Shown: in pieces, positions 1,044 to 59,848 of the stretch
Layout of the letters: each line of letters starts with the position of its first letter
How positions within the stretch are numbered: position 1 is the first letter of the stretch
The notes under the pieces: model-generated
Databases searched by the model: none
Seen by the model: the letters and a program-made list of their open reading frames with translations, nothing else
Told to the model about the DNA's origin: nothing
Program-made: the position numbers and the translations under genes
Assembly (NCBI GenBank): GCA_024760905.1
Contig: CM045729.1
Coordinates: 54,088,080 to 54,152,079, forward strand
Source: Plotosus lineatus
Lineage: Eukaryota > Chordata > Actinopteri > Siluriformes > Plotosidae
Length of the DNA stretch: 64,000 bases
Direction of reading: 5' to 3'

Positions 1044-1122
<79 letters not shown>
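1001..1122. repeat. (AC)n then (TA)n microsatellite
   Basis: Roughly 35 bases of AC repeat are followed by 78 bases of TA repeat, directly abutting the hammerhead unit at 1123. Confidence 0.95.
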
Positions 1123-1124
<2 letters not shown>

Positions 1125-1205
1125 ATTTTCTGAGTAGATCCTTCCGTAGGAGAGTGCTCAATACTTTTTGGTAGAGCAAATAAACAAAAGGACAGGACAA
1201 AGGCT

Positions 1206-1286
1206 TTCTATTGAAACTCCATTTATCACTACAGATCTGTTTCGAGGGGTGGTGAAACCATCCTCTCTCTTCAGGTGATTATAGAA
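1206..1286 (-). ncRNA. Hammerhead ribozyme motif (type I), minus-strand copy
   Basis: On the minus strand: an outer helix TTCTAT/ATAGAA, inner stem I ATCAC/GTGAT, the core CTGAAGA, stem II, GAAA, then a three-pair stem III (ACA, loop GATC, TGT) and the cleavage-site A. Stem II has one mismatch compared with the other two copies. Cleavage would fall on the 5' side of GTGAT. Inferred from sequence and pairing only. Confidence 0.75.
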
Positions 1287-1300
1287 GAACTATACTATTC

Positions 1301-1381
1301 TTCTATAATCACCTGAAGAGAGAGGGTGGTTTCACCACCCCTCGAAACAGATCTGTAGTGATAAATGGAGTTTCAATAGAA
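1301..1381 (+). ncRNA. Hammerhead ribozyme motif (type I), plus-strand copy
   Basis: Stem I pairs 1308-1312 with 1358-1362, and an outer helix pairs 1301-1306 with 1376-1381. The core CTGAAGA is at 1313-1319. Stem II has GAG/CTC and GGGTGG/CCACCC pairs over 1320-1343. GAAA is at 1344-1347. A minimal stem III (ACA/TGT, loop GATC) is followed by A1357, giving a GTA cleavage triplet. All conserved hammerhead core positions are present. The short stem III is typical of Penelope-type hammerheads, which often need to act as dimers. Confidence 0.8.
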
Positions 1382-1407
1382 AGTCTTTGTCCTGTCCTTT
1401 TATTTTT

Positions 1408-1411
<4 letters not shown>

Positions 1412-1462
<51 letters not shown>
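1412..1462. repeat. (TA)n microsatellite
   Basis: About 50 bases of TA repeat abut the plus-strand hammerhead unit, as on its other side. Confidence 0.95.
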
Positions 1463-4636: not shown

Positions 4637-4782
4637 GTGTTGCGATGTTTTTTTTTTTAAAATGCAGCTGTGAGGGGGGGGCACAAACCAGTGTCTCTCC
4701 CTCACGCCGGTCCCAAGCCCGGATAAATGCAGAGGGTTGCGTCAGGAAGGGCATCCGGCGTAAAACAAATGCCAAATAAACT

Positions 4783-5367
4783 ATGCGAATCACAAGAAAG
4801 AACCACATACCGGATCGGTCGAGGCCCGGGTTAACAACGACCGCCATCAGTGCCGTCAACCAACAGGGTGCTGATGGAAATTGGACTACTGTTGGTCGAA
4901 GACGTCGAAGAAGGAGAGGCGGGAGGCGTGTCCGTTGCCAGAGAGAGAAGAGGAAAGGCATGAGTCTAGGACTGAAAGTAGGGACTTTGAATGTTGGAAC
5001 TATGACAGGAAAAGGTAGAGAGCTGGCTGACATGATGCAGAGGAGGAAGGTGGACATACTGTGTGTTCAGGAGACCAGGTGGAAAGGTCGCAAGGCTAGA
5101 AGCATAGGAGCAGGGTTTAAGCTGTTTTATCACGGTGTGGATGGGAAGAGAAATGGAGTCGGAGTCATCTTGAAGGAGGAGTTTGCCAGAAATGTTCTAG
5201 AAGTGAAAAGAGTGTCAGACAGAGTGATGAGTCTCAAGTTAGAAATTAAAGGTGTGATGGTCAATGTTGTTAGTGCTCATGCCCCACAGACAGGATGTGA
5301 GCGAGAAGAGAAGGAGAGATTCTGGAGGGAGTTAGATGAAGTGATGCAGGGTACCCCCCAGAGGTGA
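4783..5367 (+). CDS. RTE-like LINE copy A: endonuclease, N-terminal part
   Basis: An Arg-rich leader is followed by the endonuclease/exonuclease/phosphatase fold: GTLNVGTMT (Asn about residue 70), then CVQETRW with the catalytic Glu (about residues 95-100), and SAHAPQ. The frame ends at a stop after a six-C run that has five Cs in copy B, so this is a frameshift. The true start is uncertain because several in-frame Met codons exist. The enzyme nicks target DNA to prime reverse transcription. Confidence 0.75.
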   Translation: MRITRKNHIPDRSRPGLTTTAISAVNQQGADGNWTTVGRRRRRRRGGRRVRCQREKRKGMSLGLKVGTLNVGTMTGKGRELADMMQRRKVDILCVQETRWKGRKARSIGAGFKLFYHGVDGKRNGVGVILKEEFARNVLEVKRVSDRVMSLKLEIKGVMVNVVSAHAPQTGCEREEKERFWRELDEVMQGTPQR

Positions 5368-5371
5368 AAGA

Positions 5372-6043
5372 GTGGTCATTGGGGCAGACTTCAATGGACA
5401 TGTTGGTGCAGGAAACAGAGGGGACGAGGAAGTGATGGGTAGGTTTGGTATCCAGGACAGGAACGCAGAAGGACAGATGTTGGTAGATTTTGCAAAAAGG
5501 ATGGAAATGGTTGTGGTGAATACTTTCTTCCAGAAGAGAGAGGAGCATAGGGTGACTTATAAAAGTGGAGGTAGGAGCACACAGGTAGACTACATCTTGT
5601 GCAGGCGATGTAATTTAAAGGAAGTCAGTGACTGCAAAGTAGTAGCGGGTGAGAGTGTTGCCAAACAGCATAGGATGGTGGTGTGCAGGATGATGCTGAT
5701 GGTGAGGAAGGTGAAGAAGGCAAAGGCAGAGCAGAAGACAAAGTGGTGGAAGTTGAAAAAGGAAGGGTGTCGGGTTGTCTTCAAGGAGGAGTTGAAACAG
5801 GCGTTGGGTGGTCAGGAAGTGCTTCCAGATGACTGGACAACTACAGCTAATGTGATCAGGGAGACAGGTAGGAGAATACTTGGTGTGTCATCTGGAAGGA
5901 AAGTAGATAAGGAGACTTGGTGGTGGAATGAGGAAGTGCAGGAGTGTGTACAAAGGAAGAGATTAGCAAAGAAGAAGTGGGACATTGAGAAACCGAAGAG
6001 AGTAAACACGAGTACAGGGAGACACAGCGTAAGGCAAAGGTAG
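5372..6043 (+). CDS. RTE-like LINE copy A: endonuclease C-terminal part and linker
   Basis: This continues the endonuclease after the frameshift: VIGADFNGHVG (catalytic Asp/Asn), QVDYILC, and AKQHRMV at the usual SDH position. A basic linker rich in Lys and Trp follows. It ends at a second frameshift, where copy C has one more A. The 5372 boundary is an artefact of the first frameshift and not a real start. Confidence 0.75.
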   Translation: MVIGADFNGHVGAGNRGDEEVMGRFGIQDRNAEGQMLVDFAKRMEMVVVNTFFQKREEHRVTYKSGGRSTQVDYILCRRCNLKEVSDCKVVAGESVAKQHRMVVCRMMLMVRKVKKAKAEQKTKWWKLKKEGCRVVFKEELKQALGGQEVLPDDWTTTANVIRETGRRILGVSSGRKVDKETWWWNEEVQECVQRKRLAKKKWDIEKPKRVNTSTGRHSVRQR

Positions 6044-6045
6044 CA

Positions 6046-7779
6046 GTGTCAAAGGCCAAACAGAGCGCGTTTGATGACTTGTATGCTCGGTTGGAAAGTA
6101 AGGAGGGAGAAAATGATTTATACAGGTTGGCACAGCAGAGAAATAGAGATGGGAAGGACGTGCAGCAAGTTAGATTGATAAAGGACAGAGAGGGAAATGT
6201 ATTGACTGATGACAGAAGTGTGCTGGGAAGATGGAAAGAGTACTTTGAAGAGCTGATGAATGAGGAAAATGAGATAGAAAAAAGAGTAGAAGAGGTGACT
6301 GTTGAGGACCAGGAAGTAGCAAAGATTAGTAAGGGTGAAATGAGGAGGGCATTGAAGAGGATGAAGAATGGAAAGGCAGTTGGTCCTGATGACATACCGG
6401 TGGAGGTATGGAAGTGTCTAGGAGAGGTAGCAGTAGATTTTCTGACAAGAACATTTAACAAGGTCTTAGAGAGTGAGAGGATGCCAGAGGAATGGAGGAG
6501 AAGTGTGCTGGTGCCCATTTTTAAGAACAAGGGAGACGTGCAGAGTTGTGGCAACTACAGAGGGATAAAGTTGATGAGCCATACGATGAAGTTATGGGAA
6601 AGAATAGTGGAAGCTAGACTAAGGGCAGAAGTCAGCATTTGTGAACAACAGTTTGGTTTCATGCCAAGAAAGAGCACCACAGATGCAGTGTTTGCCTTGA
6701 GGATGTTAATGGAGAAGTACAGAGAAGGTCAGAGGGAGCTGCATTGTGCCTTTGTGGATCTGGAGAAAGCATATGACAGGATGCCGAGAGAAGAACTGTG
6801 GTATTGCATGAGGAAGTCTGGAGTGGCAGAGAAGTATGTTAGAGTGGTGCAGGACATGTATGAGAGATGTAAGACAGTGGTGAGGTGTGCTGTCGGTGTG
6901 ACAGAAGAGTTCAGGGTGGAGGTGGGACTGCATCAAGGGTCAGCTCTCAGCCCCTTCTTGTTTGCTATAGTGATGGACAGGCTGACAGACGAGGTTAGAC
7001 AAGATTCCCCATGGACTATGATGTTTGCAGATGACATTGTGATCTGTAGTGAAAGCAGAGAACAAGTGCAGGAAAATCTAGAGAGGTGGAGGTATGCCCT
7101 GGAACGGAGGGGAATGAAGATTAGCCCCAGTAAGACAGAATACATGTGCATGAATGACAAGGACCAAAGAGGAACGGTGAGATTACAGGGAGCAGAGATA
7201 AGGAAGGTGGAGGATTTTAAGTACTTAGGCTCAACAATCCAGAGCAATGGAGAGTGTGGAAAACAGGTGAAGAAGCGTGTGCAGGCAGGTTGGAATGGTT
7301 GGAGAAAAGTGTCCGATGATGTGATGTGTGATAGGAGGGTATCGGCAAGAATGAAAGGAAAAGTGTACAAGACGGTGTTGAGGCCAACGATGTTGTATGG
7401 GTTAGAAACAGTGGCCCTGGGGAAAAGACAGGAGGCAGAGTTGGAGGTAGCAGAGATGAAAATGTTGAGGTTCTCTTTGGGAGTAACGAGGATGGATAGG
7501 CTTAGGAATGAGCACATCAGAGGGACAGCACATGTAAGACGTTTTGGAGACAAAGTCAGGCAGGCTAGATTGAGATGGTTTGGACATGTACAGAGGAGGG
7601 ATAGTGAGTATATTGGTAATAGGATGCTGAGGCTGGAACTACCAGGCAAAAGGCCTCGAGGAAGACCAAAGAGACGATTCATGGATGTGGTGAAGGAGGA
7701 CATGAAGGTCGTTGGTGTAAGAGAAGATGCAAAGGATAGGGTGAGATGGAGGCAGATGATTCACTGTGGCGACCCCTGA
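6046..7779 (+). CDS. RTE-like LINE copy A: reverse transcriptase
   Basis: A 577-codon open frame with reverse transcriptase blocks in order: VLVPIFKNKGD, NYRGIKLMS, EQQFGFMPRKST-type block, FVDLEKAYDRMPRE, GLHQGSALSPFLF and the catalytic FADD at about residues 327-330, then DFKYLGS. A C-terminal domain with GWNGWRK, LYGLETV and RPRGRPKRRF follows. It stops at WRQMIHCGDP, where coding sequence runs into the conserved 3' tail used by SINEs. All catalytic residues are present. It would be translated as the C-terminal half of one EN-RT protein. Confidence 0.9.
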   Translation: MSKAKQSAFDDLYARLESKEGENDLYRLAQQRNRDGKDVQQVRLIKDREGNVLTDDRSVLGRWKEYFEELMNEENEIEKRVEEVTVEDQEVAKISKGEMRRALKRMKNGKAVGPDDIPVEVWKCLGEVAVDFLTRTFNKVLESERMPEEWRRSVLVPIFKNKGDVQSCGNYRGIKLMSHTMKLWERIVEARLRAEVSICEQQFGFMPRKSTTDAVFALRMLMEKYREGQRELHCAFVDLEKAYDRMPREELWYCMRKSGVAEKYVRVVQDMYERCKTVVRCAVGVTEEFRVEVGLHQGSALSPFLFAIVMDRLTDEVRQDSPWTMMFADDIVICSESREQVQENLERWRYALERRGMKISPSKTEYMCMNDKDQRGTVRLQGAEIRKVEDFKYLGSTIQSNGECGKQVKKRVQAGWNGWRKVSDDVMCDRRVSARMKGKVYKTVLRPTMLYGLETVALGKRQEAELEVAEMKMLRFSLGVTRMDRLRNEHIRGTAHVRRFGDKVRQARLRWFGHVQRRDSEYIGNRMLRLELPGKRPRGRPKRRFMDVVKEDMKVVGVREDAKDRVRWRQMIHCGDP

Positions 7780-7989
7780 AGGGAAAAGCCGAAAGGAAAA
7801 GAAGAAGAAGAGTGTTGCGATGTTTTTGTATTGGTTTATTTCATGCTCAGTGTTAAGTGAAAATGGGCACTTGCATACTTTATAACTGTTTCTTGTTTAT
7901 TGTTTTATAGAGGAAGAGTGTCCCAGAGAACTCATATCCCTCCACTGTAGCAAAAATAATGGCTTTTGACCCAACAAAATTCTGAATTT

Positions 7990-26928: not shown

Positions 26929-27258
26929 CTTTTCGGCTTTTTCTCGTTCTCGAGAGTCGCCATAGATAATCATCTAATTCGCACATTTGATTTGGCATGG
27001 ATTTTTACGTTGGATGCCTTTCCTGTCACAACCCTTTTAGCAAGGGACAGAAACACGCTGACGACTTTGCAGCCTATTCTTTACGAAAGTCAGCAGTGGT
27101 TTTTTTACATGCCTCTCACCATAGACAGTGAGAGACATGGCCCGCCTTTGATAACCCAGTTAGCTGCATTGGGGGGACAGTGACAACCCTGTGGGGGCTC
27201 GAACCCCCAACCTTAGGATCAGCGATCCTGCGCCCTATCCACTAGACCATCAGTGCCG
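26929..27258 (-). repeat. Chimeric SINE: shared head with RTE-derived tail
   Basis: The same layout as 8634-8973, on the minus strand: head with GGTTCGAGCCCCCAC-like box B, the CAGCTAACTGGGTTATC body, GTCAGCGTGTTTCTGTCCC, then GACAGGAAAGGCATCCAACG and the RTE 3' end. Confidence 0.8.

Positions 27259-30233: not shown

Positions 30234-59848
<29,615 letters not shown>

Follow-up and report, generated by a model that had tools for sequence, protein, structure and literature searches.

The window, a 64-kb stretch of DNA from a fish genome, contains three copies of a small unit with a hammerhead ribozyme (HHR) motif. Two of them face each other between (TA)n tracts, and the third stands alone. Positions in the unit are given as q numbers for a full length of about 173 nt, with the predicted cut at q60|q61. 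The features are as follows.

1047..1122, (TA)n tract beside the full arm
1123..1289, minus strand, full arm of the head-to-head pair, 167 nt, with the HHR in its 5' half; the 3' end reads ...CAGAAAATCC and is followed by (TA)n
1206..1286, minus strand, HHR core including the outer stem I as first drawn, with an A.C mismatch in stem II
1229..1230, minus strand, predicted cleavage site GUA^G (q60|q61), the GTA ending at 1230; genomic pile-up at q60|q61
1290..1297, spacer at the head-to-head junction, 8 nt
1298..1410, plus strand, short arm of the pair, about 113 nt, with a T-rich stretch at its end, followed by (TA)n
1301..1381, plus strand, HHR core, stem II fully paired with one bulged A
1347..1356, plus strand, 10-nt palindrome ACAGATCTGT, predicted to form a 3-bp stem III with a GATC loop in the monomer and a 10-bp stem III in the dimer
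1357..1358, plus strand, predicted cleavage site GUA^G
1411..1462, (TA)n tract beside the short arm
49675..49849, minus strand, full arm of 175 nt standing alone, with (TC)n and then (TA)n after it
49766..49846, minus strand, HHR core, 81 nt, the same as 1301..1381
49789..49790, minus strand, predicted cleavage site GUA^G

In the full arms of the window, the distance from the predicted cut to the 3' end is 107 and 115 nt.

Hammerhead cores in the window

The initial annotation had placed HHR cores at 1206–1286 (minus), 1301–1381 (plus) and 49766–49846 (minus), and all three places and strands were borne out. As it had described, every copy carries CUGAAGA, stem II, GAAA, a 3-bp stem III and GUA; stem III consists in each case of A-U, C-G and A-U pairs closing GAUC. 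The copies at 49766–49846 and 1301–1381 are indeed identical over 81 nt, and that at 1206–1286 has the annotated mismatch in stem II, which turned out to be the norm in the family, its base being present in 35 of 39 genomic arms. The two-part stem I that had been drawn stood only in its inner half: the 5-bp helix AUCAC/GUGAU is retained, and the outer 6-bp helix UUCUAU/AUAGAA is unfavoured (pair probabilities 0.03–0.07), UUCUAU being paired with AUGGAG rather than AUAGAA in the best fold of the monomer. By sequence the motif is a type I HHR: the core and all three stems are present, the cleavage site has UH and the open end is in stem I.

We scanned both strands of the window with a descriptor (CUGANGA, GAAA, stem I of at least 5, stem II of at least 4 and stem III of at least 3 pairs, UH) and found these three cores only. 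Shuffled windows gave any match at all in 0 of 300 cases in one run and in 80 of 15,661 in a larger run; when stem II was required to be at least 9, as it is in two of the three real copies, 1 of 8,276 shuffles matched. The three copies are homologous and thus count as one independent occurrence. They are real hammerhead cores, beyond what chance produces.

The Rfam hammerhead models, named by the initial annotation as a check, gave no match at the gathering cut-off over the window and none at E ≤ 10 on two of its sub-regions, which is one of the outcomes that the annotation had named as a refutation; miRNA-type Rfam matches at 1182–1405 were discarded as artefacts that the 108-nt inverted repeat produces. 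As controls, we used phage contigs gathered by a canonical HHR pattern (at least 120 stretches, IMG/VR loci L006–L125), in which the structure scan found textbook hammerheads. Eight phage loci with such hammerheads likewise gave none at the Rfam gathering cut-off, and the four hammerheads of L014 scored 25.1–30.2 bits against a cut-off of 34; the E-value mode recovers these four and not the fish copies. Since the gathering cut-off also drops canonical phage hammerheads, we rejected Rfam alone as arbiter. A custom covariance model built from 23 phage hammerheads gave 89 matches at E ≤ 1, of 12.0 to 70.3 bits, on 42 loci outside its training set. It placed the core of the fish copies correctly at 11.4 bits each (E about 0.2, ranks 2–4 of 32), a score that taken alone is not significant. 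Given this score and the Rfam miss, covariance models lend weak support at best, for which the short stem III and the long, bulged stem II are plausible reasons. Textbook hammerheads of type I, and some of type III, are frequent in the phage contigs themselves (L006–L125), often with several on one contig.

Genome-wide architecture and the search for a coding partner

A search of the 1.33-Gb assembly with the unit returned at least 68 match rows, with 40 of 180 candidates scored. Our main sample comprised 39 rows selected by HHR match, namely the window pair and, of the 40 near-full rows, all 38 from outside the window. Thirty-six of the 39 loci are head-to-head pairs of one full and one short arm. 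None of these 36 joins two full or two short arms, and if the start site were chosen at random on each side, 36 mixed pairs out of 36 would have a probability of about 1.5e-11. The full arm is about 173 nt long, with its outer end at q168–173, and the short arm is 104–118 nt long, with its outer end at q104–118, 17 of them at q116. The junction spacers measure 0–34 nt, are distinct in 34 of the 36 pairs and in many cases duplicate pieces of the 5' end. At the inner ends, 63 of 72 arms begin at q1–5 and the other nine are shortened; among the partner arms, which lie outside the HHR selection, the count at q1–5 is 27 of 36. Elsewhere in the sample, L178 is also head-to-head but has a spacer of 140 nt, L135 combines a short arm with part of a full arm that stands apart from it, and L179 is a lone full arm, as is the third copy in the window.

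These insertions lie mostly in (TA)n: in the 60 nt beyond the outer end, a run of (TA)≥6 occurs for 34 of the 41 full arms and for 35 of the 40 short arms, whereas random 60-mers from the window contain one in 42 of 5,000 cases. The unit thus shares the AT-rich target of Penelope-like elements (PLEs), as well as their inverted pLTR-like arrangement with a 3' tail and a weak stem III. Variable (TC)n runs stand between the 3' end of the unit and (TA)n at about 49648–49674 in the window and in the right flanks of several copies, such as L134, L138, L146 and L149; they may reflect slippage at the initiation of reverse transcription or later growth of a microsatellite.

Extended by A, C or G, the tail occurs at no fewer than 421 sites in the assembly, and a second sample of ten loci was picked by this tail, not by the HHR. 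Eight of the ten are head-to-head and two are lone full arms (L193, L195). Six of the eight pairs are full plus short, L201 is full plus full, and the partner in L198 ends at q81; the pairing rule thus holds strongly, though with exceptions. Only 4 of the 10 tail-bearing arms reach q1–5, the others starting at q33, 54, 61, 79, 104 and 112, so early stops are common. Private variants common to both arms of a pair were not found, a result that does not separate one template from two. In the tail-selected loci, the HHR is not better conserved than the tail (22 substitutions in 1,153 against 10 in 874, p 0.21), and recent selection for cleavage is therefore not shown. Two apparent conservation signals (c1 versus c3, p 0.034; an excess in the first loci) were rejected, because those loci had been picked by HHR match and the tail-selected loci show none.

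The initial annotation had suggested looking for the unit next to a Penelope reverse transcriptase (RT). This neighbourhood was not found: past the tail, all ten loci of the second sample run into TA or TC/TA repeats, with no ORF. Elements with RT and GIY-YIG domains do occur elsewhere in the assembly (25 GIY-YIG matches, one ORF confirmed as RT plus GIY-YIG). The unit has no significant similarity to 20 of the GIY-YIG match loci and one upstream stretch, most of them 3-kb pieces that may miss a pLTR, and no hammerhead was found in 20 scanned RT plus GIY-YIG loci. The GIY-YIG matches are peculiar in their position. Twenty-one of the 25 are no farther than about 100 kb from the end of a contig (C3, C4, C5, C6, C12, C13, C14, C17, C18, C19, C24), at least one of these contig-end loci (L155–L173) being in an RT plus GIY-YIG frame, and 18 of the 20 fetched loci hold at least eight TTAGGG/CCCTAA words, which reads as endonuclease-bearing Penelope-like copies at telomere-like sites of a fish genome.

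Within the window, Pfam found no GIY-YIG domain in 19 of the 62 listed ORFs; the domains present are RT, APE-type endonuclease, one DUF6451 and one zf-piccolo, the last below the cut-off. The RT frames belong to LINE-type elements or are without GIY-YIG. With no RT/GIY-YIG ORF found in it, the element is at most a non-autonomous relative of PLEs. A protein search with the two open frames across the unit gave no match, and because the database includes fish proteins these frames are probably not coding. A simple pattern for Pol III boxes found none in two arms, ARAGORN called no tRNA gene, and exact unit patterns were absent from viral and prokaryote contigs. A vertebrate-PLE-like pattern matched viral contigs five times, with no visible hammerhead and no Rfam match, and was dropped. 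Our searches of an open-access literature library listed no description of the fish element, which may have been named before in papers beyond that library or in repeat databases.

Other repeats of the window include one LINE in three copies (4661–7818, 35342–38708 and 46513–48999) with Exo_endo_phos and RVT_1 domains, 87–96% identical in pieces. One copy keeps an open RT frame of 596 aa, and the ORF at 5989–7776 resembles LINE proteins of Hemibagrus, Lucifuga (88–90% identity), Channa and other fish, which marks the host as teleost-like. At 27185–27256 (minus), an Rfam tRNA match of 33.8 bits that ARAGORN does not call lies within a dispersed repeat and is probably a tRNA-derived SINE.

We read the unit as a small element with an RNA of its own. 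It might instead come from an ordinary autonomous PLE, the arms being truncated 3' tails and inverted pseudo-LTRs (pLTRs) templated by a long mRNA, with no separate small RNA. In the parts of PMC3846280 and PMC8969392 available to us, PLEs are described as 5'-truncated, with inverted pLTRs and a short 3' extension in some cases. The scattered inner ends of the tail-selected loci would suit such an origin, and our sampling covered 40 of 180 candidates and 10 of the 421 extended-tail sites. Truncation of a long RNA should scatter the starts, whereas in the main sample they cluster at q1–5, partly through HHR selection but also in the unselected partner arms, and the loci that we read have no ORF extension. 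We consider the autonomous-PLE origin unlikely, though by no means negligible, and continue with the small RNA as the favoured template.

Inner ends at the predicted cut

In the tail-selected locus L195, the single full arm is joined to (TA)n at q61. A first pattern search gave 29 listed loci on the first two contigs, ten of which were left out as divergent or ambiguous; 8 of the 19 starts classified by eye fit q61, one with an extra G (p 0.0017, uniform model). With a fixed pattern, we then found 62 genome sites that have eight A/T immediately before q61. Twenty of these loci were read, three of them (L203, L204 and L205) picked because both arms were listed, and in these three both arms begin at q59–61. 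In six other head-to-head q61 loci, four partners start in q57–64, one at q3 and one at q112; the share in q57–64 (4 of 6) compares with 1 of 36 partners in the general sample (p 6e-4). All nine head-to-head loci in this cut-site sample are full plus short.

A final pattern yielded 91 rows, listed in full, with 81 starts within q48–q70. Starts at q59–61 account for 29 of the 81 rows, against 10.6 expected if starts were uniform; counted per locus, one having been listed twice, the figure is 28 of 80 (p 5e-7, uniform model). We read this pile-up of inner ends as probable genomic traces of self-cleavage, and we conclude from the sequences that template RNAs ending at q61 existed, their source most simply being hammerhead cleavage. 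Most arms of the main sample, in which loci were picked by HHR match, begin at q1, i.e., would stem from uncut RNA.

The same pile-up could arise without cleavage, from a stop of the reverse transcriptase at q59–61 or from joining at (TA) microhomology. The bases q59–60 are TA, microhomologous to (TA)n, and the apparent start is q59 in 20 of the 29 cut-site rows; in addition, the final pattern, by requiring TATA four bases ahead of the junction, favours TA joins. The other TA site, q65–66 (apparent starts q64–65), however, accounts for only 8 of the 91 rows. Of the flanks at the 62 fixed-pattern sites, 34 end in TA and 28 do not, and TA microhomology cannot account for the latter. Partner arms of the same insertion, moreover, halt at the same place. 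A stop or a microhomology join is in our view a rather unlikely source of the pile-up, and self-cleavage is the reading that we retain. Together with the genome-wide pairing and the (TA)n targets, the pile-up supports the annotated placement of the HHR cores within small retroelement-like units.

Predicted dimer folding, related elements and a proposed model of mobilisation

For the monomer, the HHR structure is less stable than the best fold by about 6 kcal/mol, and the probability of stem III is about 0.01. The stem III region forms a perfect palindrome of 10 nt. Through it, two copies join in their best predicted co-fold, an exact double hammerhead whose core bases are unpaired. The co-fold energy is −59.0 against 2 × −24.2 kcal/mol for the fully paired form and −45.6 against 2 × −17.5 kcal/mol for the common form. 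A palindromic tetraloop has a chance of about 1 in 16 given a 3-bp stem III, and the palindrome is thus modest evidence. Folded as one transcript, the mirror-image pair gives a long hairpin of −196 kcal/mol, so a read-through transcript of the locus would not be expected to form the ribozyme.

A 10-bp dimer stem formed by a palindromic loop III has been described for repeat-type hammerheads, which the parts of PMC3088659 available to us name for Aedes and others, with no fish among them. In the axolotl, a weak helix III goes together with cleavage as a dimer (PMC7229834, in the sections accessible to us). That system belongs to the metazoan non-LTR retrozymes, small circular RNAs made by HHR cleavage of tandem repeats, and the fish unit could be taken for one of them. 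According to the same sections, retrozymes have a type I HHR with a weak helix III and a palindromic tetraloop, act as dimers and measure 170–400 nt, a range near the size of our unit, for which the dimer is a predicted co-fold. The fish unit is mostly inverted, a head-to-head pairing that those sections do not describe for the tandem retrozymes, and its full units span q1 to q173 with ends that do not lie at the cut. Within 60 nt, we saw no head-to-tail pair among the 39 loci of the main sample or the 10 tail-selected loci, and one among the 20 cut-site loci, hence 1 in 69; the sole case is L209, whose second member begins at q61, as a retrozyme would have it. Two tail-to-tail neighbours (L139 and L217) were also seen in the three samples. 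A retrozyme is an improbable identity for this unit, and the Penelope side would seem to fit better, and the annotated short stem III was, on our analysis, the right clue. That the motif is a chance look-alike in a non-catalytic repeat, as the lack of a significant covariance match might suggest, is very improbable in view of the shuffled windows, the double-hammerhead co-fold and the traces at the cut site.

On the Penelope side, the closest comparison available to us is part of a study of the Anolis carolinensis PLE (PAc, Poseidon; PMC11167929). There, the cut lies 26 bp and RT initiation 111–118 bp into the ORF, i.e., 85–92 nt apart by our own subtraction; the fish counterpart is the distance of 107 and 115 nt from cut to 3' end in the full arms of the window. 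The fish unit resembles PAc in having an HHR upstream of putative internal RT starts, two such start sites and AT-rich targets, and in the extension of both strands that its pairs suggest; the PAc protein in vitro prefers AT-rich DNA and extends both strands, starting internally. In PAc, an RT-GIY-YIG ORF begins at stem II, whereas no ORF was found in the fish unit. The systems also differ at the cut: in the portion of the study available to us, no PAc reads begin or end there and insertion in vitro proceeds without the need for cleavage, whereas some fish copies start at the cut. A second likeness is with Penelope families of Adineta vaga, in which a shorter inverted pLTR stands head-to-head with a direct one, with palindromic junctions and an optional 3' tail (PMC3846280, in the parts at hand). 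The Adineta elements border a coding or captured region, and solo pLTRs are mentioned as well; the fish unit differs in being just the pair, set in (TA)n and with stuttered spacers.

We propose the following model. A Penelope-like reverse transcriptase/endonuclease would probably mobilise an RNA of about 173 nt. The enzyme would cut a (TA)n tract, and each of the two DNA ends would then serve as primer for reverse transcription from an internal RNA site, at q173 in one case and within the U-rich q104–118 stretch in the other, a both-strand priming that resembles what has been reported for the PLE in vitro (PMC11167929, as far as available to us). Both cDNAs would grow toward the RNA's 5' end, in many cases stuttering there, and be joined to form the head-to-head pair, with a fresh spacer at each insertion; two cDNAs meeting from both sides of a cut are expected to leave clustered outer ends together with variable inner ends and new junctions. 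The HHR, weak as a monomer, would pair through the stem III palindrome into a double hammerhead and cleave GUA^G, so that some inserted copies would derive from cleaved RNA and therefore start at q61. The model builds on what can be read from the sequence (the motif, the architecture, the target, the clustered outer ends, the variable spacers and the pile-up at the cut) and on the dimer predicted by folding; cleavage in vivo, priming from both strands and a PLE enzyme are its presumed parts.

As a whole, this model of a small ORF-less retroelement with a type I HHR, PLE-type mobilisation, dimer cleavage and insertion of cut RNA is one that we hold to be probable, if well short of secure. Within it, the use of one start site of each kind is unexplained by the literature cited; for the Anolis PLE, the available part of the study gives the same start site for both strands (PMC11167929). 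That the ORF-less RNA integrates by priming from both (TA)n ends, with one of each start site at nearly every insertion, and that RNA cleaved in vivo is also a substrate, we put forward more tentatively, its chances being close to balanced.

If this is true, ribozyme cleavage stays recorded in the genome, at the inner ends of the inserted units. With many like insertions in one genome, the inner ends would show where the template RNA stopped, the predicted cut included. Likewise, mirror-image pairs that combine both kinds of start site would make priming from both strands testable from genome sequence alone.
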